Shown here: in pieces, positions 19,916 to 32,397 of the stretch | How positions within the stretch are numbered: the first letter of the stretch is position 1 | How the letters are laid out: every line of letters begins with the position of its first letter | Assembly: GCA_024405675.1 (NCBI GenBank) | Contig: JAKSOH010000008.1 | Span: 1 to 32,736 of the forward strand | Direction: 5' to 3' | Source of the DNA: Victivallaceae bacterium | GTDB taxonomy: Bacteria > Verrucomicrobiota > Lentisphaeria > Victivallales > Victivallaceae | Length of the DNA: 32,736 nt | The notes under the pieces: generated by a model | The model's input: only the letters and a program-made list of their open reading frames with translations | Database searches by the model: none | What the model was told of the DNA's origin: nothing | Program-made: the position numbers and the translations under genes

Positions 19916-22492
19916 TTATTTGCGGTTCTTCTTCCGCGCGTCGATGCGACGGTGCCATGCCGTCAGAAACGGGCCGGCCACGAAAATGCTTGAGCAAGTT
20001 CCAAATATGACACCGAGCATCATAATCATGACGAAGTCGTTGATAGCCACACCGCCGCCCAGGAACAGGATAAAGACCACGATGAACGTTGTCACGCTAG
20101 TCAGCATCGTGCGGCTGAGCGTCTCGTTTACGGATCGGTTGACCAAAATCCCGAAATCATCCTCTGGCGCAAGCCTGATGTTCTCTCGGATGCGGTCGAA
20201 AATCACGACCTTGTCGTTGATGGAATATCCGATGATGGTAAGGACCGCGGCCACAACAGTGAGCGAAACCATCCGCCCCAACGCCAGGTATATACCCATC
20301 ACCACCGCCACGTCGAGCACCAGCATCAAAACACCGGTAACGGCGTAGGTGTGCTCGTAGCGAAGCGTGATGTAGATTCCAATTCCGACCAGCGACAGGG
20401 CAATAGCCCACATGGCCGCCTTTGTGAATTCCCAACCGATGAGGCCGCCTACGCTGCTCTCGATTCCCCCCTCGAACTTTGCATTCGGGAACTTGGAATT
20501 GAGCAGTTCTCCGATAACATCCTTTGGGCTGCGGCCGGCGTTGTCCGCCGTCAAATCGCCTCGAACCAGTATCTCCATCTTGCGCTCGCCATTGCCGGAA
20601 GCGATGTTGAACTTGTATGTAACTGACGGCTCGTCATATCCGGCGGCGGCCAGCACCGATTCTATCTTCTCCTTGTCAACCTGCTCAGCGTAGTTGAAAG
20701 TCACCACCGTTCCGCCGGTGAAGTCGACACCGAGCATGCCAGTTCCGCGGATGCATCCAATCGCCAGCGCGGCCGCGACCGCGATTGCCGCGACCGGTCC
20801 AGAAATCCGGTACCAGCGGATGAAGTCGTACTTCGTGTTGCGGAATATCGACAGCATTGACATTTTGGAGAATCTCGTATAATTGAAGAGAACGTCGAAT
20901 ATCAGTCTGGTTACAAAGAGCGCCGTGAACAAACTGGTGAGGATTCCGATACTCAGCGTCACGGCGAATCCCTTGACCGCGCCGGTTCCGACGTACATGA
21001 GAATGAACGAAGTGAGCAACGTAGTTATATTCGCATCGAGCACCGCCGAAAGCGCCTTGCCGTATCCGAGATCGACCGCATGGCGAAGCTTCTTTCCTGC
21101 TTCGATTTCCTCGCGTATTCGCTCGTAGACCAGGACGTTTGCATCGACCGCCATGCCGATAGTCAGAACGATGCCAGCGATTCCCGGCAACGTCAAAGTG
21201 CAGTTGAAGGCGGCCATCGCACCTAGGATGAGCACGATGTTAAGCGAAAGTGCCACTATCGCAACGAAGCCACTGGAACGATAGTAGAGTAGCATGAAAA
21301 GCGCGACGCAGAGCAACGACAATGCACCGACCCATATTCCGTTGGAGATGTTGGCCGCGCCTAATTTCGGGTCCGTGTCGAATACCGCGTTGACCTTGAT
21401 CTGGAACGGAAAGCTCCCGCTGACCAGGGCGTCCGCGATGTTCTTGGCCTCCTCCTCTGAAAAACGGCCGGTGATTTCTGCCGAGCCACCAGTGATAGCG
21501 CCGTTGATGCGGGGCGCGCAGCAAAGCTGCCCGTCGAGCACGATGGCCAGCGACCTGCCAACGTTGGCGGCGGTGACGCGACCGAAGTCCTCCGCTCCCT
21601 GCAGATTGAAGCGCAGCTGTATGCGGCGCTGACCGAACTCGTCCTTGGTCGCCACGGCGTACGTTATGTCCTTGCCCTCCATTTCCGCCTGCTTAGCCAC
21701 AAAGAACAAATGCTCCTCCGGTGCTTGTCCCTTGCGGAAATCGGTAGTCTTCATGAGCTCGTATTCAATTGGTATCTGGAACTCGTCCGGATTCATCCGG
21801 TAGGCGCGGACCATCGCATCGTTGTCCGGATGGACCAGCCGAAACTTGAGCTTCGCACTCATGCGTATGAGATCGAGCAGCTTGAGTTTCTCGTCCTTGG
21901 CCACCACCGGTGCCCGCAGTGAGACATAGCGACTGCCGGACGGCGATATTTCGGCCTCGAAAATCTTCTGGCTCTCGAGACGCTTGCGTAATATCTCGAT
22001 CGCCACGTCGCGGTAATAGTTGAACTGGTTGTCCAACCGCGCCTCCGCCTGCTCTCTGGACTCGCCCTGTTTTCCATCGGCCTTGATCTTGGCCAAAAAG
22101 TTCTCGTCCGGAACCAGTTCGAGATAGAACTCCACGCCTCCGGCAAGATCCAGTCCGAGCCTTATCGTGCCGGACGCCTTCTTCCGTATGAGACTCATGA
22201 CGTCGCGATTGTCAGTAAGTCCGGACGGATCCTCCAGCCTTTCGGAGAGAACTACGCCGTTGGCGTCGGCCGCCTGAAGCAACGCCTGCGACTGGAACAT
22301 CTGCGGGTTATTCCGCTGCAGATTCCGGGCGTCATCTACGAGCTTTTTAGCCACTTCATCGTTCTTGTCCCGAAGCAACGACATGAAAACCTCGTAATAG
22401 TCGCGTTCACGCAACGGGTACACGGCAAGGACGAACATCGCGACCACGAAAATCGCGATTATCGTCCGAAGCAATATCGGTCGCTTTTCCAT
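19916..22492 (-). CDS. secDF: Fused protein translocase subunit SecDF
   Basis: 858 residues from the ATG at 22492, four bases after the yajC stop; the longer frame to 22546 lies inside yajC. SecD and SecF, proton-driven helpers that pull proteins through SecYEG, are joined in one chain with about 12 membrane helices. The SecD half has TM1 near residues 6-25, a large periplasmic region with the P1 head (IQLRFNLQGAEDF, LAIVLDGQLCCAPRI), and GMAVDANVLVYERIREE in the membrane part. The SecF half starts around residue 555, with GVDFTGGTVVTFNYAEQVD and IGYSINDKVVIFDRIRENI, both family hallmarks. It follows yajC as in many bacteria and precedes ybaB by 13 bases. Confidence 0.95.
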   Translation of the reverse strand: MEKRPILLRTIIAIFVVAMFVLAVYPLRERDYYEVFMSLLRDKNDEVAKKLVDDARNLQRNNPQMFQSQALLQAADANGVVLSERLEDPSGLTDNRDVMSLIRKKASGTIRLGLDLAGGVEFYLELVPDENFLAKIKADGKQGESREQAEARLDNQFNYYRDVAIEILRKRLESQKIFEAEISPSGSRYVSLRAPVVAKDEKLKLLDLIRMSAKLKFRLVHPDNDAMVRAYRMNPDEFQIPIEYELMKTTDFRKGQAPEEHLFFVAKQAEMEGKDITYAVATKDEFGQRRIQLRFNLQGAEDFGRVTAANVGRSLAIVLDGQLCCAPRINGAITGGSAEITGRFSEEEAKNIADALVSGSFPFQIKVNAVFDTDPKLGAANISNGIWVGALSLLCVALFMLLYYRSSGFVAIVALSLNIVLILGAMAAFNCTLTLPGIAGIVLTIGMAVDANVLVYERIREEIEAGKKLRHAVDLGYGKALSAVLDANITTLLTSFILMYVGTGAVKGFAVTLSIGILTSLFTALFVTRLIFDVLFNYTRFSKMSMLSIFRNTKYDFIRWYRISGPVAAIAVAAALAIGCIRGTGMLGVDFTGGTVVTFNYAEQVDKEKIESVLAAAGYDEPSVTYKFNIASGNGERKMEILVRGDLTADNAGRSPKDVIGELLNSKFPNAKFEGGIESSVGGLIGWEFTKAAMWAIALSLVGIGIYITLRYEHTYAVTGVLMLVLDVAVVMGIYLALGRMVSLTVVAAVLTIIGYSINDKVVIFDRIRENIRLAPEDDFGILVNRSVNETLSRTMLTSVTTFIVVFILFLGGGVAINDFVMIMMLGVIFGTCSSIFVAGPFLTAWHRRIDARKKNRK

Positions 22493-22496
22493 GGTG

Positions 22497-22832
22497 CTAC
22501 TTCTTTGCCCCTTCGGCCGCCGGCGCCTGGCCCGGTTCGGCCACACCGTTCTTGGCGACCTTCACCACGACGGCGGGAGCGATTTCCACGCGGAAATCGT
22601 TTTCAAGCACTTCGACGATGGTTCCGTATATTCCGCTGCCAAGCATGACCGGCGTGCCCTTCACGAGCTGGTCGAGCATTTGCTGACGTTTCTGCTGCTG
22701 CTTCTTCTGCGAACGGGTCATGAAGAACATGAATACGATGAGAATGATAAAGATGGGCGCCATCTGGATCAACCCGCTCCCCACTCCCTGCTGCCCCTGC
22801 GCCGCTCCCTCTGCGATGATGAATTCCAACAT
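22497..22832 (-). CDS. yajC: YajC, Sec translocon accessory subunit
   Basis: 111 residues with one membrane helix (GLIQMAPIFIILIVFMFFMT) followed by a basic, Gln-rich stretch (RSQKKQQQKRQQMLDQLVKG) and a small domain with TPVMLGSGIYGTIVEV, the standard YajC pattern. YajC associates with SecDF at the inner membrane. The C-terminal tail is Ala/Pro-rich. The ATG has AAGGAG upstream with an 8-base spacer. It lies directly before secDF, four bases apart, supporting a yajC-secDF unit. 39 bases separate it from the upstream uxaE-like gene. Confidence 0.94.
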   Translation of the reverse strand: MLEFIIAEGAAQGQQGVGSGLIQMAPIFIILIVFMFFMTRSQKKQQQKRQQMLDQLVKGTPVMLGSGIYGTIVEVLENDFRVEIAPAVVVKVAKNGVAEPGQAPAAEGAKK

Positions 22833-24505: not shown

Positions 24506-25291
24506 GAAGGGGAAAATCCTTTGGAAAGTCTTTACGCCATCCTGAAGCTGGCGGCCGAACCATGGCGCTCCGGAAATCCGGAAATCGACGCATTCATCGA
24601 CTTGAAGTTGGAGCACTCCGCCCGGGTGGCGGAAATCGGTGGACAAATCGCTGCCGGCGAACATTTTCCGGCGGACATCATGGACGCCGCCAATTGTGCC
24701 TGCATGTTCCATGACATCTCGCGGTTCATGCAATACCGACACCACCGGTCGTTCGACGACCGACTGAGCTTCGACCACGGAGACATGTCGGCCGAAATTC
24801 TCAAAGACGCTGGAATACTAGACTTCCTCGCCCCCGACGATCGGCGCGACGTCATAACAGCGGTGCGCCTACACAACAAGAGAACGCTTCCGTCGGAACT
24901 TACGAAACATGCGAGACTTCTTGCGAAGCTGACGCGCGACGCCGACAAGCTGGACATAATGGCCATCTTCACCGCGCAGGCCGTCGAGAACGGAAGCGCC
25001 GACACCATTGGATTTTCCCTCGGTTCCGAGCGATTGATGTCTCCGAACATATTGGAATCGCTGGCCGCCCGCCGCTGTCCGTCATATGGCGACATCGTCA
25101 ACGCCTGCGACTTTTGGCTGGTGAGAATAGGATGGGTGTACGACCTCTCGTTCGACACATCGGTAAGCATATTCCGGGAAAGAAAATATTTGGATTTCCT
25201 AGAACAGGAGTTGGACGGAATTCCAGGAGCCGACAAGCCGTTGCGCGATGCAAAAAACTACATTGTCAGCCACGTCGGAGCGAACGTCTGA
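24500..25291 (+). CDS. HD-domain metal-dependent phosphohydrolase
   Basis: 263 residues. The conserved HD pattern is complete: KLEHSARVAEIG (first His), CMFHDISRFMQYRHHRSFDD (the His-Asp pair followed by RF.Q), SFDHGDMSAEILKDAG (further His), VRLHNKRTLP and TRDADKLDIMAIFTAQA (last Asp). Such single-domain HD proteins hydrolyse phosphate esters, often nucleotides, with bound divalent metal; the substrate is unknown. The C-terminal quarter, RIGWVYDLSFDTSVSIFRE, is family-typical. The ATG has a weak ribosome site. It diverges from the uxaE-like gene, sharing a 92-base region with facing promoters. Its last 26 bases overlap the convergent dnaA 3' end. Confidence 0.85.
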   Translation: MQEGENPLESLYAILKLAAEPWRSGNPEIDAFIDLKLEHSARVAEIGGQIAAGEHFPADIMDAANCACMFHDISRFMQYRHHRSFDDRLSFDHGDMSAEILKDAGILDFLAPDDRRDVITAVRLHNKRTLPSELTKHARLLAKLTRDADKLDIMAIFTAQAVENGSADTIGFSLGSERLMSPNILESLAARRCPSYGDIVNACDFWLVRIGWVYDLSFDTSVSIFRERKYLDFLEQELDGIPGADKPLRDAKNYIVSHVGANV

Positions 25292-26633
25292 GCTGCTCCA
25301 GGCTCTGGCGGAACATCGGTTTCTTGTCGCAAAGCAATTTCACCCGTTTTTCAGCATTGATGACCGTGGCATGATCCCGACCAAACAACGATCCGATTTC
25401 CGTCGTCGATTTTCCCGTCAGCTCCCGGCAAAGGAACATAGCCATCATCCTCGGCTCAGCCACGCTTGTCTGCCGGCATTTGCCCAGCATCTCGGGCAAG
25501 GTCACGCTGAAATGCGAAGCTACCGCCTGCTGGATGTCGGCCACCGACAACGCGCGACTTTCCTTAATCAGCACCGAGTGCAATATCCGCTCCCCTTCCC
25601 CGCCGCTCATGGAGTCGCGTCCGCTCATCGACAACGTGGTGGTCAACCTAAAGAAGGCACCAAACAACGTGCGCACGCTGGACTGTATTCTAGAGGCAAG
25701 CATCTCAAGAAGCTCATCGCTCAAAGGATGCTCGGCCATCACCTCGCGTCTCTTGTTCATGAGTATCGCCATGCGGGACTCATATCCCGGCATTAGCGCC
25801 TCTGTAACGACACCCTGTTCGAATCTCGTTGTCAGACGCTTGTCTATGTCCTGCATGTCGCACGGCTGCTTGTCGCTGGTCAGCACTATCTGCTTACCCT
25901 CGTCGTACAGTGCGTTGAAAATGTCGAAGAACTCGTCCTGGAGACGATGCTTGCCGTCCAGCAAGTAGATGTCGTCGACCAGCAGCACGTCGCAACACCT
26001 GAGGGAATCGCGGAGCTCGTAGAGATCGCCCCTTTCCGTCAGGATCCTGTAATACCTGTCGATCAGTTCGCGGCAGCTCAGGCATACGACGCGCACATCC
26101 GGCGAATTGACTAGTAGATCGTACTCTATCGAGCGCAGGAGATGGGTCTTCCCGATACCGCTGTCACCATAGATGAAAAGCGGATTGTAGAGTCCTGGCT
26201 GGGTAGCGGCGGCCTTGGCCATCAAATATGCATGCCGGTTCTCCTCGCCTACGACGAAATTCTCAAAAGTGTACTGAGATTGTGGCGGGATGACAGGCTT
26301 GACAATCGGAGGCTTGATGATATCCTCCTTGCGTTTGGTATCCGACACCGGAACCAGCGGAACTTTCAGCTCTGGATAGTCCATCGACAACTCGAAATCG
26401 TAATCCCTGCCGTTTATATCGCGTAGCGCATCTCGTAATTCACCGGAGAAATTGTCCACCGCGAAAGCATGGGTGATTACGTCGAAACCTCCAATCACCA
26501 ACTTGCCGTTGTCGCATGACACCGGATTCGCATGCTCGAAGAACCTCTCGTAGGAGTCTCTGCATGAATCGATCAGCCGCCGGGCGGCCACGGTCCATAT
26601 GGCGACCGCTTCCTTTATCGATTCCATTTCCAA
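25266..26633 (-). CDS. dnaA: Chromosomal replication initiator DnaA (with shortened box-binding signature)
   Basis: 455 residues. Domain I (about 1-90) has IWTVAARRLIDSCRDSYERF. A short linker (VKPVIPPQSQ) leads to the AAA+ domain with YTFENFVVGEENRHAYLMA, Walker A GDSGIGKTHLLRSIEYDLL, Walker B VLLVDDIYLLDGK and sensor 1 IVLTSDKQP. Domain IV binds DNA: SVAEPRMMAMFLCRELTGKS followed by TEIGSLFGRDHATVINAEKR. The usual signature is FGGRDHTTV; here one Gly is missing (FGRDHATV), confirmed from the codons. No dnaN or recF is adjacent and the upstream gap shows no cluster of DnaA boxes, so the gene may lie away from the origin or be a paralogue. The start is ATG at 26633 with GAGG 8 bases upstream. 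Confidence 0.92.
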   Translation of the reverse strand: MEMESIKEAVAIWTVAARRLIDSCRDSYERFFEHANPVSCDNGKLVIGGFDVITHAFAVDNFSGELRDALRDINGRDYDFELSMDYPELKVPLVPVSDTKRKEDIIKPPIVKPVIPPQSQYTFENFVVGEENRHAYLMAKAAATQPGLYNPLFIYGDSGIGKTHLLRSIEYDLLVNSPDVRVVCLSCRELIDRYYRILTERGDLYELRDSLRCCDVLLVDDIYLLDGKHRLQDEFFDIFNALYDEGKQIVLTSDKQPCDMQDIDKRLTTRFEQGVVTEALMPGYESRMAILMNKRREVMAEHPLSDELLEMLASRIQSSVRTLFGAFFRLTTTLSMSGRDSMSGGEGERILHSVLIKESRALSVADIQQAVASHFSVTLPEMLGKCRQTSVAEPRMMAMFLCRELTGKSTTEIGSLFGRDHATVINAEKRVKLLCDKKPMFRQSLEQLRRSLRRG

Positions 26634-28043: not shown

Positions 28044-28059
28044 GATTCCCAAGAAGAGC

Positions 28060-28081
28060 TCCATAGGTAATAACCTATGGA
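28060..28081. repeat. 22-base palindrome between divergent promoters
   Basis: TCCATAGGT (28060-28068), AATA and ACCTATGGA (28073-28081) form a perfect 9-base inverted repeat. It lies 17 bases upstream of the trpS -35 and 12 upstream of the lipoprotein -35. With no T-run in either direction it is unlikely to be a terminator; a regulator binding site serving both sides is the simplest reading. Confidence 0.6.
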
Positions 28082-28092
28082 AAAACCTTGAA

Positions 28093-28122: not shown

Positions 28123-28157
28123 ATGAAACTACAAATTGACCAAACGGAGGTGCCGTC

Positions 28158-28721
28158 ATGAAATCTAGGTTGTTCACGATTGCGTTGGCAATGATTTGCC
28201 TGGCCTTGCTGCCGGGATGCGAAGAGTTCGAAGACCTCATGAACGAAACCAGCAACGACCCCAACTCCGAGATATACGAGCCGCGGTTCATCGTCGGAAT
28301 ATTCAGTATCATAGACTACCCGCGTGCGAGCGCGCTAGAACGAGAAATCGAGTCCGGCGACGGCAAGAAAATCTGGATAAACACCAACCAGTGCTTCAGC
28401 AGCAAGCATCTGAGGAAAGCGAGGGTCGTCGCCCGCCCCGGGGATCCAGATTCATGCGATCTCCAGTTCAAGTTCGATCGCATGGGCAAAGTGCAATGGG
28501 AAATGCTGTCGGGACAGCATCGGGGCGAACCAGTGGTGCTCGTTGTCGACGGACGCTACGTGGCGAAGTTCATTCCGGAGCCGCCGGATGACGACAGCAA
28601 GAACATGTGGATAACGTTGAGAGTGGGAATAGATCCATACACGGCCAAGGGAGTTGCCAAGTTCGCGGAAAAGAACTACTACTACTACAATCCAGACGCC
28701 AAGCACTGGTGGAACTTCTAG
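28158..28721 (+). CDS. Small lipoprotein resembling a SecD P1 head domain
   Basis: 187 residues. A lipoprotein signal is clear: MKSRLFTIALAMICLALLPG then Cys21, with Glu at +2, so outer-membrane sorting is plausible. The middle (about 70-142) reads like the SecDF P1 head domain: LRKARVV (86-91), a strand CDLQFKFDRMGKVQW, then PVVLVVDGRYVAKFIPEP (125-142), which parallels the SecD motif (LAIVLDGQLCCAPRI in this window's own SecDF). The rest is charged and aromatic, ending NYYYYNPDAKHWWNF. The ATG has GGAGG 7 bases upstream. It is the first gene of an apparent operon with a Ppx/GppA-HD protein 10 bases on, then ppk. Function is unknown; the SecD likeness is read by eye and needs a structure search. 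Confidence 0.8.
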   Translation: MKSRLFTIALAMICLALLPGCEEFEDLMNETSNDPNSEIYEPRFIVGIFSIIDYPRASALEREIESGDGKKIWINTNQCFSSKHLRKARVVARPGDPDSCDLQFKFDRMGKVQWEMLSGQHRGEPVVLVVDGRYVAKFIPEPPDDDSKNMWITLRVGIDPYTAKGVAKFAEKNYYYYNPDAKHWWNF

Positions 28722-28731
28722 CGGCATCGAA

Positions 28732-30243
28732 ATGTCCAGGAAGAAATCGGGCGAGACTGCGGTCATCGACATCGGATCTAGTTCCGTACGCATGGACATC
28801 CTGGCGTCCGGGAAATCCGGCATGCGGGTCATTGATTCCATGGCGATGCCGACCGGAATCGGGTATGACGTGTTCCGGAAGGGCAACGTGTCGCCGGGCA
28901 GCTTGTCACAGCTGGTCGGCACCTTGGTGATGTTTCGAGACAAGTTGCGCGAATATGGTTTGCGCGATGCCTACGTCTTTGCAACAAGCGCCTTGCGCGA
29001 AGCGTTCAACCGAGAGCTGGCGGTTTCTATGATTCGTCAAAAAACCGGATTCAATGCGCACATAATGGAATCGACCATGGAGATAACGACCATCTACCTC
29101 GCGATTCGCCACCAACTGGAAGAAACAGGCGTTCCAATGACCGGTCCGACGCTTATCTCGGTCACTGGAGCGGGATCCATGTTCGTGGTGTTCTGCGATG
29201 GCGGGCTGATGCGGTTCTGCGAGGAGATTCCACTTCGTAGCGCGCGTATCTATGATTCAATTGGAAGATCCTCGGTTCCGGCTGATCGGTTGGTCGACAT
29301 GCTCAGGGCCGCCAACCTTCCGCAACGTCTGCGCGAATGCACCGGATTCGACAAGTCGACCCCGATTTCCCTGGTTCTTGCCGGAGAAAATGCGAGACTC
29401 CTGGCGGCGGCGGTCACCGGAGGAAAGCCTCCAGCCGAAAACGAGATATCTGCCCCATCCATAGAGCGGCTACGGCAGTTCACCGCCGGCGAATGGTCCC
29501 CTTCCTCACCCTTGCGCACAGGAGACGCAGGCGGCGCAGAACTGGAAACCAGAACCGTAGGATACTTTCTCGGTCTCTTCAAGTGCGCCAAGGTGATCGT
29601 CCCTGGAGTGACAACGCGTAGTGCGGTCATGGAAGAACTGTATCTGCCACCAGGATACATGGATATTGCGTTCGCCGAGGATCTGCGCTCAGTGTGCGAC
29701 GCGATAGGACGCAAATACGGCTACTTCCGCGAGCATGCGGAAGCGATGCGCGTCATTTGTTCGGCGATAATGAAGAACATCGGCGGAGATTCGACATTTC
29801 CACCGGAAGCGTCGAGACTTGTGGACGTGGCGTCCTACTTGCATGACATCGGGCGCTTCGTAGACACCCGGCGGCATCACCGGCATTCCGAGTATCTCAT
29901 AGCCAACATGCAGATTCCCGGAATCAGCATGAGGGAACTGAAGATAATCTCGCTGCTCGCCCGCTACCACCGTCGGTCTGTACCGAAGGAGTCCCATCCG
30001 GAGTACATGGCCCTTCGCGACGAGGACAAAGTCCTGGTGCAGAAACTTGCCGCCGTAATCAGAGTGGCCGATGCGCTGGACTGCGCTCATTGCAAGAGAT
30101 TCTCATCTCCGAAGATAACGCGTTCCGGACTCGAACTGCGAATTTCCTCATCGGACGGAGATGTCAGGGCGGAAAAACTGGCCATCAAGGCGAAGGGCGA
30201 TCTCTTCGCGGATGTCTTCGGACTAAAGATCATCCTGGAGTAG
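28732..30243 (+). CDS. Ppx/GppA-family protein with HD domain; phosphatase motifs degenerate
   Basis: 503 residues from the ATG at 28732; the longer frame lies inside the lipoprotein gene. Residues 8-310 are the ASKHA-fold Ppx/GppA core (exopolyphosphatase/guanosine pentaphosphatase) with phosphate-1 motif VIDIGSSSVRMDI (11-23) and VFATSALREA. The usual SGxEEA motif is replaced by MESTMEI (112-118), and the DIGGGSTE phosphate-2 motif by SVTGAGSMF (143-151), so the acidic residues expected for catalysis are largely lost. Residues about 360-452 form an HD domain that looks intact: LHDIGRF (His371, Asp372), RRHHRHSEYLI, LLARYHRR and IRVADALD. It may bind polyphosphate or (p)ppGpp without cleaving it at the first site. 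ppk follows 6 bases later, supporting a polyphosphate role. Confidence 0.85.
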   Translation: MSRKKSGETAVIDIGSSSVRMDILASGKSGMRVIDSMAMPTGIGYDVFRKGNVSPGSLSQLVGTLVMFRDKLREYGLRDAYVFATSALREAFNRELAVSMIRQKTGFNAHIMESTMEITTIYLAIRHQLEETGVPMTGPTLISVTGAGSMFVVFCDGGLMRFCEEIPLRSARIYDSIGRSSVPADRLVDMLRAANLPQRLRECTGFDKSTPISLVLAGENARLLAAAVTGGKPPAENEISAPSIERLRQFTAGEWSPSSPLRTGDAGGAELETRTVGYFLGLFKCAKVIVPGVTTRSAVMEELYLPPGYMDIAFAEDLRSVCDAIGRKYGYFREHAEAMRVICSAIMKNIGGDSTFPPEASRLVDVASYLHDIGRFVDTRRHHRHSEYLIANMQIPGISMRELKIISLLARYHRRSVPKESHPEYMALRDEDKVLVQKLAAVIRVADALDCAHCKRFSSPKITRSGLELRISSSDGDVRAEKLAIKAKGDLFADVFGLKIILE

Positions 30244-30249
30244 AGGCGC

Positions 30250-32397
30250 GTGACTATTCCCACCAACAACGATTCAGTGGATACGGAGTTATTCACAAGT
30301 AGGGACCTGTCCTGGCTGGAATTCAACAGACGAGTACTCGACGAAGCTGGAAATGAAGCGAATCCGGTTTTGGAACGTCTCAAATTCATAGCAATAAGTG
30401 ATAGCAACCTCGACGAGTTCTTCATGGTTCGCGTCGCCACACTAACCCGGCAGGCGTCCGGATCCGGCGACATCGCGGATCCGGCCGGCCTGAAGCCGTC
30501 GCGGCAACTACCGCGTATCGCGAACACAGTGAAAAGCATGCAAAAGACGCAATCGCGTCTTCTGAACGGAATACTTGGGGAACTGGCAAACGGCGGAATC
30601 AAAATTTCCAGCATGGCACTTTTAAGTGAAGAGGAACGAAACTTGACGACTGGCAAATTCCGCCGGGAGATATTGCCTGTCCTGACTCCGCTCGCCATAG
30701 ATGCGGCGCATCCGTTCCCGCTTCTTGCGTCCGGGGCAATTGAGATAGCCGTTGTATTCAAGTCACCGGACAATGAGGAAATCCGCGCCTTTGTGGAAGT
30801 TCCGCAGCAACTGGAACGTTTCGTGGAAGTGTCGTCGCAAGACGGCAAACGCAAGTTCGTCATGCTGGAAGATTTGATTTCGTCCAATCTTGGAATGCTG
30901 TTTCCCGCTGGGGAAATAGTGGATAGCCTGGCATGCCGCATCACCCGGGACATGAACCTCAACATTTCCGACAACAACACCGCAGATCTCATGCAGAGCA
31001 TCGGCGCCCAGCTGCGATTGCGCAAGCGCCGGGGTGCGATACGTCTTGAAATAGCCGGTCATCGAAAAGGGAAGTTAGTCAAGTGGCTCAGGAAAAGCCT
31101 GCATCTTGACGAATCGGCGTGCTATGAGCCGGATGCGCCGCTTTGTCTTAGGCAATTCTGGGAAATCGTGGAAAAGACGGCCCGTCCGGAATGGCTGGAG
31201 AACGAATGGAAGCCGGCCCCGTTGGCGGCACTTGCCGGGCACGGCATGGTGTTCGAGGCGATACGCACAGAAGGGGAAATCCTCGTCGCCCCGCCTTTTC
31301 ACAGCTTCTCCACCATTGTCCGAATGTTGGAGGAAGCGGCCGACGATCCAAACGTACTAGCCATCAAGCAGACACTCTATCGGGTCAGCGGAAACAGCCC
31401 CGTCGTCCATGCGCTGCTGAAAGCGGCCGAACGCGGGAAGCAGGTGTCGGTTGTAGTCGAACTCAAGGCGAGATTCGACGAGTACAACAACATCGCGTGG
31501 GCCATGGAGTTGGAGCGTTACGGAGCGCATGTCGTGTACGGGGTCGCCGGACTCAAAGTACATGCCAAAGCCATGCTGGTGATAAGGCGAGAAGGCGATC
31601 GACTGATGAGATATGCCCATCTAGGCACGGGAAACTACAATGACAAGACGGCAGCAGTCTATGCGGATGTCGGGATTCTCAGCTGCGACGAGGACATATG
31701 CGACGACGTGTCAAGATTGTTCAATCTGCTGACCGGTGTCACCATGCCGGGAATTTCATTCACGACTATGGCTGTTTCCCCATTTTCATTGCGGTCGACG
31801 TTTGAACATCTTGTCGAACGCGAGATATCCAACGCCCGTTCCGGACTTCCTGCGCGCATAATCGCAAAGATGAACAGCCTCTCGGACGAAAAAATGATCA
31901 GACTGCTGCACATTGCGGCGGAATCCGGAGTTGAAATAACGCTAATAGTCCGCGGATTGTGTTGTTTACGGCCACCGCGAAATAGTTGCAACGTCAGGGT
32001 ATTGAGCATAATAGACCGCTATCTTGAGCACAGTCGCATCTACTTCTTCGAAAACGGTGGCGATGGCGAGTTCTTCTTGAGTAGCGCCGACATGATGACA
32101 AGGAACCTTGACCGACGCATAGAAGCATTGTTCCCCGTCAAATCAGATAAGACCAAATCGGCTCTGAAAACAATGCTGGAATTCCAAATCGGAGATTCGT
32201 GCAAATGTCACCGCCTGACGGCGGACGGCGACTACTTGGCGCCTAGAAACGGAGACAAGGATTCGCGCAGTCAGTACCGAACCTGGAAATACTTCGTAGA
32301 CTCGGCAAAAGGGGAGTTGTACTCAGGAAACTCGGGAACGCTCAAGGTGTTCAAATCCGAAAAGCGGGACGGAGTTCCGCCGGAAGCTTCCAGATGA
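30250..32397 (+). CDS. ppk: Polyphosphate kinase 1
   Basis: 715 residues from a GTG at 30250. PPK1 polymerises the gamma-phosphate of ATP into polyphosphate at the membrane periphery, reversibly. Landmarks: the N-terminal FTSRDLSWLEFNRRVLDEA and ISDSNLDEFFMVRVATL, KQTLYRVSGNSPVVHALLKA, the autophosphorylated His438 in LKVHAKAMLVIRR, YAHLGTGNYNDKTAAVYAD, and the second active-site His594 in DRYLEHSRIYFFENGG; the two positions correspond to E. coli His435 and His592. The Ppx/GppA-HD gene precedes it, a frequent pairing. The start has only GGAG nine bases upstream. The last 47 bases overlap the convergent cmk 3' end. Confidence 0.96.
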   Translation: MTIPTNNDSVDTELFTSRDLSWLEFNRRVLDEAGNEANPVLERLKFIAISDSNLDEFFMVRVATLTRQASGSGDIADPAGLKPSRQLPRIANTVKSMQKTQSRLLNGILGELANGGIKISSMALLSEEERNLTTGKFRREILPVLTPLAIDAAHPFPLLASGAIEIAVVFKSPDNEEIRAFVEVPQQLERFVEVSSQDGKRKFVMLEDLISSNLGMLFPAGEIVDSLACRITRDMNLNISDNNTADLMQSIGAQLRLRKRRGAIRLEIAGHRKGKLVKWLRKSLHLDESACYEPDAPLCLRQFWEIVEKTARPEWLENEWKPAPLAALAGHGMVFEAIRTEGEILVAPPFHSFSTIVRMLEEAADDPNVLAIKQTLYRVSGNSPVVHALLKAAERGKQVSVVVELKARFDEYNNIAWAMELERYGAHVVYGVAGLKVHAKAMLVIRREGDRLMRYAHLGTGNYNDKTAAVYADVGILSCDEDICDDVSRLFNLLTGVTMPGISFTTMAVSPFSLRSTFEHLVEREISNARSGLPARIIAKMNSLSDEKMIRLLHIAAESGVEITLIVRGLCCLRPPRNSCNVRVLSIIDRYLEHSRIYFFENGGDGEFFLSSADMMTRNLDRRIEALFPVKSDKTKSALKTMLEFQIGDSCKCHRLTADGDYLAPRNGDKDSRSQYRTWKYFVDSAKGELYSGNSGTLKVFKSEKRDGVPPEASR

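Follow-up and report, generated by a model that had tools for sequence, protein, structure and literature searches.

Why does a gene for a small exported lipoprotein stand directly in front of polyphosphate genes, and what does its product do? The question arises in a stretch of 32,736 nt of Victivallaceae bacterium DNA (GCA_024405675.1, contig JAKSOH010000008.1, positions 1 to 32,736, forward strand), the whole of which we call the window. Here the lipoprotein stop codon is separated by 10 bases from the ATG (28732) of a Ppx/GppA-HD gene, and ppk starts at 30250, six bases past the ppx stop; the divergent upstream neighbour is trpS. A sequence-only reading of this DNA had noted the open reading frame, the 10-base spacing and the ppk gene beyond, all of which are confirmed by the sequence and by Pfam. 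The features of the locus, with one region included for comparison, are as follows.

28146..28150, + strand: GGAGG ribosome-binding site, 7 bases 5' of the ATG (direct reading of the sequence)
28158..28721, + strand: lipoprotein gene, ATG start and TAG stop; the 187-aa product is free-standing and SecD P1-head-like
28158..28217, + strand: signal peptide, residues 1-20, with lipobox L-P-G ahead of Cys21 (sequence)
28218..28220, + strand: Cys21, predicted to be lipid-modified (Cys conservation)
28293..28352, + strand: N-terminal strands of the fold (residues 46-65), which carry the YPRA..LE+EI motif of the family (model secondary structure, alignment A1)
28365..28661, + strand: P1-head core, residues 70-168, beta-beta-beta-alpha-beta-beta-beta-alpha (hhalign to SecD heads; fold match)
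28732..30243, + strand: Ppx/GppA phosphatase with HD domain, a lineage-specific 3' neighbour (Pfam Ppx-GppA, Ppx-GppA_III and HD; synteny)
30250..32397, + strand: ppk1, polyphosphate kinase, a lineage-specific 3' neighbour (Pfam PP_kinase domains; distribution)
21407..21715, - strand: P1-head region within the SecDF encoded by this genome, for comparison (PF22599, 99 bits)

The comparison region belongs to the genome's true SecDF gene (19916-22546), which has the full SecDF architecture. The 187-aa lipoprotein is laid out far more simply, as a signal peptide, the lipobox with Cys21, a linker and then a single folded domain, the P1-head domain, which spans residues ~46-175. An AlphaFold2 model built with 30 aligned sequences has a mean pLDDT of 84.6 and exceeds 90 across most of this domain. 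When the model was searched against the PDB with Foldseek, eight chains matched at E<=0.001 and all eight were SecDF, the match to the SecDF P1 domain covering model residues 35-173. The best SecDF alignment in VIA-align had a Z of 10.4 over 117 residues (rmsd 2.7), while the top unrelated chain reached a Z of 6.1. Tail-tube/Hcp-like barrels and PH domains also appeared in VIA-align at Z 3-6; these are common arrangements scoring well under SecDF, and we rejected them.

The relation is much fainter in sequence, identity to SecD heads being ~13-15%. A sequence-only search of the PDB with profile A1 gave nothing significant (best E 0.31, to unrelated proteins), so that searching by plain sequence misses the link to SecD. 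With a profile made from the genus alone, the probability against SecD heads was just 7%, and a deeper alignment was therefore needed. Against SecD heads from the same order, the shallower alignment A1 reached 78%, and alignment A5 reached 94.6% (E 6.7e-8, score 49.1) over 94 collinear columns, the maximum among 100 shuffled-column controls being 22.4; a second profile-profile comparison scored 36.3 against a maximum of 17.0 in 60 shuffles. The segment PVVLVVDGRYVAKF, which the earlier reading had lined up with LAIVLDGQLCCAPRI of the genome's own SecDF, falls in register within these 94 columns. Conserved L102, G110, W114 and D131 of the family align with the invariant SecD residues I32, G40, F44 and D61. 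Domain libraries gave weak but repeated matches: the window protein scores 15.2 bits against PF22599, under the 27-bit curated cut-off, PF22599 is matched by 11/36 family members at E<1 (best E 0.003) and TIGR01129 secD by 3/36 (best 0.0034), and the top PF22599 score for the family in whole-genome matches is 20.9 bits (G121). The proposed P1-head identity is thus upheld by an unbiased fold search, by profile-profile comparison and by these Pfam and NCBIfam matches. From profiles and model together, we take the domain to be a remote homologue of the SecD P1 head; the protein itself is not a SecD.

What is shared with the SecD/SecDF P1 head (PF22599; PDB 3aqo, 5xan, 5xap, 5yhf) is the predicted fold and topology, a collinear head profile with G..(W/F) and a hydrophobic-D-G turn, and a place outside the cytoplasmic membrane. 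In contrast to SecD, the window lipoprotein is free-standing and lipid-anchored and has no P1 base, transmembrane helices or proton relay. Neither the window protein nor any of the 36 members matched the P1 base (SecD_1st) in Pfam, SecD_SecF_C had no match in the window protein, and the N-terminal signal helix is the only membrane segment in the 187 aa, with no six-helix bundle and no proton-relay Asp. Since the SecD membrane part is missing, the lipoprotein cannot use the proton gradient itself. The conserved surface residues differ as well. The SecD invariants N37, T48, the AP after the LDG turn and the GG.A.I.G.F segment are mostly lost, and because of this the binding surface may differ from that of the SecD head.

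In place of the membrane part there is a predicted lipid anchor. The N-terminus carries the lipobox-Cys signal by which bacterial lipoproteins are recognised (MKSRLFTIALAMICLALLPGC, with Cys21); Cys21 is invariant in 30/30 members across the class, and the Cys is preceded by G, A or S in 56/56 members from the order, which supports the earlier view of a lipid-anchored protein. The predicted product would be exported and lipidated on Cys21, with the P1-head module facing the periplasm and tethered to one membrane.

The family is widespread. A contig scan with the single window protein as query recovered no relative, while alignment A2 as query did recover them. A homologue is present, usually in single copy, in 57/60 relatives and in 29/29 of the near-complete ones; the named relatives are Lentisphaeria/Victivallaceae MAGs, mainly from animal gut, together with a small number of Lentisphaeria MAGs from the environment and one cultured organism, Victivallis vadensis DSM 14823. 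Because of its conservation in 57/60 relatives, we regard the lipoprotein as a core envelope component. When 195 genomes from the phylum were searched with a profile, nearly all of the order was positive, as were five genomes from other families of the class, with weaker matches that are all lipoproteins too; outside class Lentisphaeria the same search found no homologue. Some genomes carry the gene in tandem pairs or triplets, three tandem copies being seen in genus g33 of family f4 (G163, G204, G142, G151; L137, L138).

Family f4 also holds P1 heads of another kind. In G038 (L161:1647-2255) and G232 (L179:3174-3884, minus strand), a P1-head lipoprotein lies directly 5' of yajC-secDF. Like the window protein, it is a separate protein with a lipobox and a P1-head domain; unlike it, it is near SecD in sequence (above the Pfam cut-off, at 92.6 bits to PF22599 for G038/L161), has an extra N-terminal part and stands in the Sec operon. 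In G225 a smaller signal-peptide protein is flanked by a signal-peptidase-like gene and secDF, and the P1-head match at that site is interrupted by an in-frame stop. G233 and G234 (genus g122; L176:1663-2190 and L177:4376-4846) encode secreted P1 heads scoring 44.4 and 34.3 bits to PF22599, apparently non-lipidated, with no clear lipobox, in an unrelated place beside an amidohydrolase-like gene. These f4 genes are distinct from the window family, whose homologues coexist with them in the same genomes. Separate stand-alone P1 heads have arisen in this family, the lipoprotein of the yajC-secDF operon being probably a later, independent duplication.

What might such a protein do? The P1 head of SecDF is critical in translocation and is believed to be positioned over the SecYEG exit (PMC9508474), the SecD P1 head has a hydrophobic pocket (PMC8669966), and the SecD periplasmic domain mediates Sec-BAM contact (PMC7695460). 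By analogy with these, and from its sequence and model, we tentatively favour, at somewhat less than even confidence, the reading that the window lipoprotein is a secreted, lipid-anchored, stand-alone P1 head that binds exported polypeptide or a partner and aids secretion or the envelope, polyphosphate metabolism not being its core role because ppx-ppk joined the lipoprotein in one family only. The signal peptide would export the protein and lipidation of Cys21 would tether the periplasmic module to one membrane, where, like the SecDF head, it would most likely contact a Sec/BAM partner or polypeptides fresh from the Sec translocon, and so work as a tethered holdase or accessory in export and envelope assembly. 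Counted in favour of an export role is the recurrence of P1-head lipoproteins directly upstream of yajC-secDF in the two f4 genomes. Counted against it, the window-family gene was never beside sec genes in the loci examined, and the genes that widely flank it are regulatory, encoding an NtrC-type activator, a Ser/Thr kinase and a GreA-like protein.

A common fold is by itself no proof of a common function with SecD. The P1-head fold may no longer handle polypeptides and may have been kept only as a scaffold for an unrelated envelope role, for example that of a peptidoglycan, outer-membrane or protein-complex subunit. Such structural re-use would fit the low identity to SecD heads, the tandem duplicates and triplicates of some genera, and the residues G69, S82, N173 and Y174, which are invariant in the family and absent from SecD. 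However, the core conserved residues coincide with those of SecD, and the independent stand-alone P1 heads of the order sit in a yajC-secDF operon, so that we consider re-use unlikely, at perhaps one chance in four.

The regulatory neighbours suggest a different function. In the other families of the order, an NtrC-type sigma-54 regulator lies directly 5' of the lipoprotein gene at 14/23 loci, often with a Ser/Thr kinase gene before the regulator and, after the lipoprotein gene, a gene whose ~700-aa product bears a GreA domain at its C-terminus; each of the five loci examined in other families of the class reads NtrC-type gene, lipoprotein gene, GreA-like gene. By parsimony, the NtrC-lipoprotein-GreA order is the older setting. 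The full cluster of Ser/Thr kinase (with a ~900-aa C-terminal region), NtrC-type regulator, P1-head lipoprotein and ~700-aa GreA-domain protein was observed at L040, L041, L043, L045, L047 and L049-L051. The GreA-like gene is order-wide and remains elsewhere in the genome when unlinked from the lipoprotein gene.

Lipoprotein sensors are familiar in envelope signalling, NlpE reporting to Cpx and RcsF to Rcs. Both are small exported lipoproteins, and the commonest neighbours of the window family are signalling genes; we know of no fold or sequence relation between NlpE or RcsF and the window lipoprotein. On this model, the lipoprotein would bind mis-exported polypeptide, or be filled by export traffic, and report the state of the envelope to adjacent signalling proteins. 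The conserved neighbourhood argues for such a sensor, which we nevertheless rate as doubtful, no better placed than re-use; its candidate receivers would be the Ser/Thr kinase (whose long C-terminal region lies past a likely membrane segment) and the sigma-54 NtrC-type regulator. Against the sensor, the lipoprotein has mostly gone from the cluster, yet is kept, in the window's family, f4 and f8. GreA, moreover, is a cytoplasmic protein, and the cluster could therefore be no more than an old operon of convenience. More specifically, and to our minds improbably, a lipid-anchored P1 head freed from the export motor could serve as a secretion-state sensor for the adjacent sigma-54 regulator (and the Ser/Thr kinase), in a Lentisphaeria circuit from which the lipoprotein later moved operon in some families.

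There remains the setting seen in the window itself. Among the 33 window-genus relatives, ppk was detected in 25, in every case no more than ~3 kb from the lipoprotein gene on a shared contig, with or without ppx between them. This adjacency (25/25) recurs in several more of the family's genera, with Victivallis vadensis as one example; aroE and pilD are often divergent from the ppx-ppk setting. In six members of the genus the lipoprotein persists although no ppk was detected; five of these genomes are 94-97% complete. In the other families of the order, ppk is present in 19/24 sampled genomes and adjoins the lipoprotein gene in 0/19, one pair sharing a contig at ~15 kb apart. Surveyed in this way, the adjacency that the sequence-only reading had proposed to look for holds in part of one family and fails in the others, so linkage to ppk, taken as the mark of polyphosphate-operon membership, is not conserved across lineages. 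By parsimony, the ppx-ppk setting is derived, a late rearrangement in one family. Although the adjacency within the genus and the 10-base gap in the window, which suggests a single transcript, would suit a lipoprotein that partners Ppx and Ppk in a polyphosphate or stringent response, this role is very improbable: Ppk and Ppx are cytoplasmic enzymes and the lipoprotein is exported, the lipoprotein outlasts ppk in the six genomes above, and the distribution (25/25 in the genus vs 0/19 elsewhere in the order) leads us to reject the link as a general function. The suggestion that the lipoprotein serves polyphosphate or stringent signalling is, as a general role, largely refuted.

Returning to the favoured reading of a stand-alone P1 head, we found no described lipoprotein of this kind in the literature searched, which was thin on subscription papers; other phyla may harbour stand-alone P1-head proteins that have escaped annotation. 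How SecDF handles exported polypeptides with its moving P1 head is still debated, and a natural head free of the membrane motor, order-wide, also found elsewhere in the class and accompanied by distinct lipid-anchored versions within the secDF operon, offers a test of the head acting alone. The analysis also puts a name to an uncharacterised protein that is near-universal in Victivallales-type Lentisphaeria, the cultured Victivallis vadensis among them: an order-wide envelope protein of little-studied gut and environmental bacteria, whose build resembles the head with which SecD handles polypeptides.

Two further observations concern the region upstream of the lipoprotein gene. Between trpS and the lipoprotein gene lies a hairpin, CTCCATAGGTAATAACCTATGGAA (window 28059-28082), which may serve as operator or terminator; its palindrome (28061-28080, core CCATAGGTNNNNACCTATGG) was considered as the operator of a regulon and rejected, no second site with <=2 mismatches being found across the genome. 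Near trpS, on the minus strand at 25266-26633, the window also encodes a DnaA-like protein of 455 aa with Bac_DnaA and Bac_DnaA_C domains.
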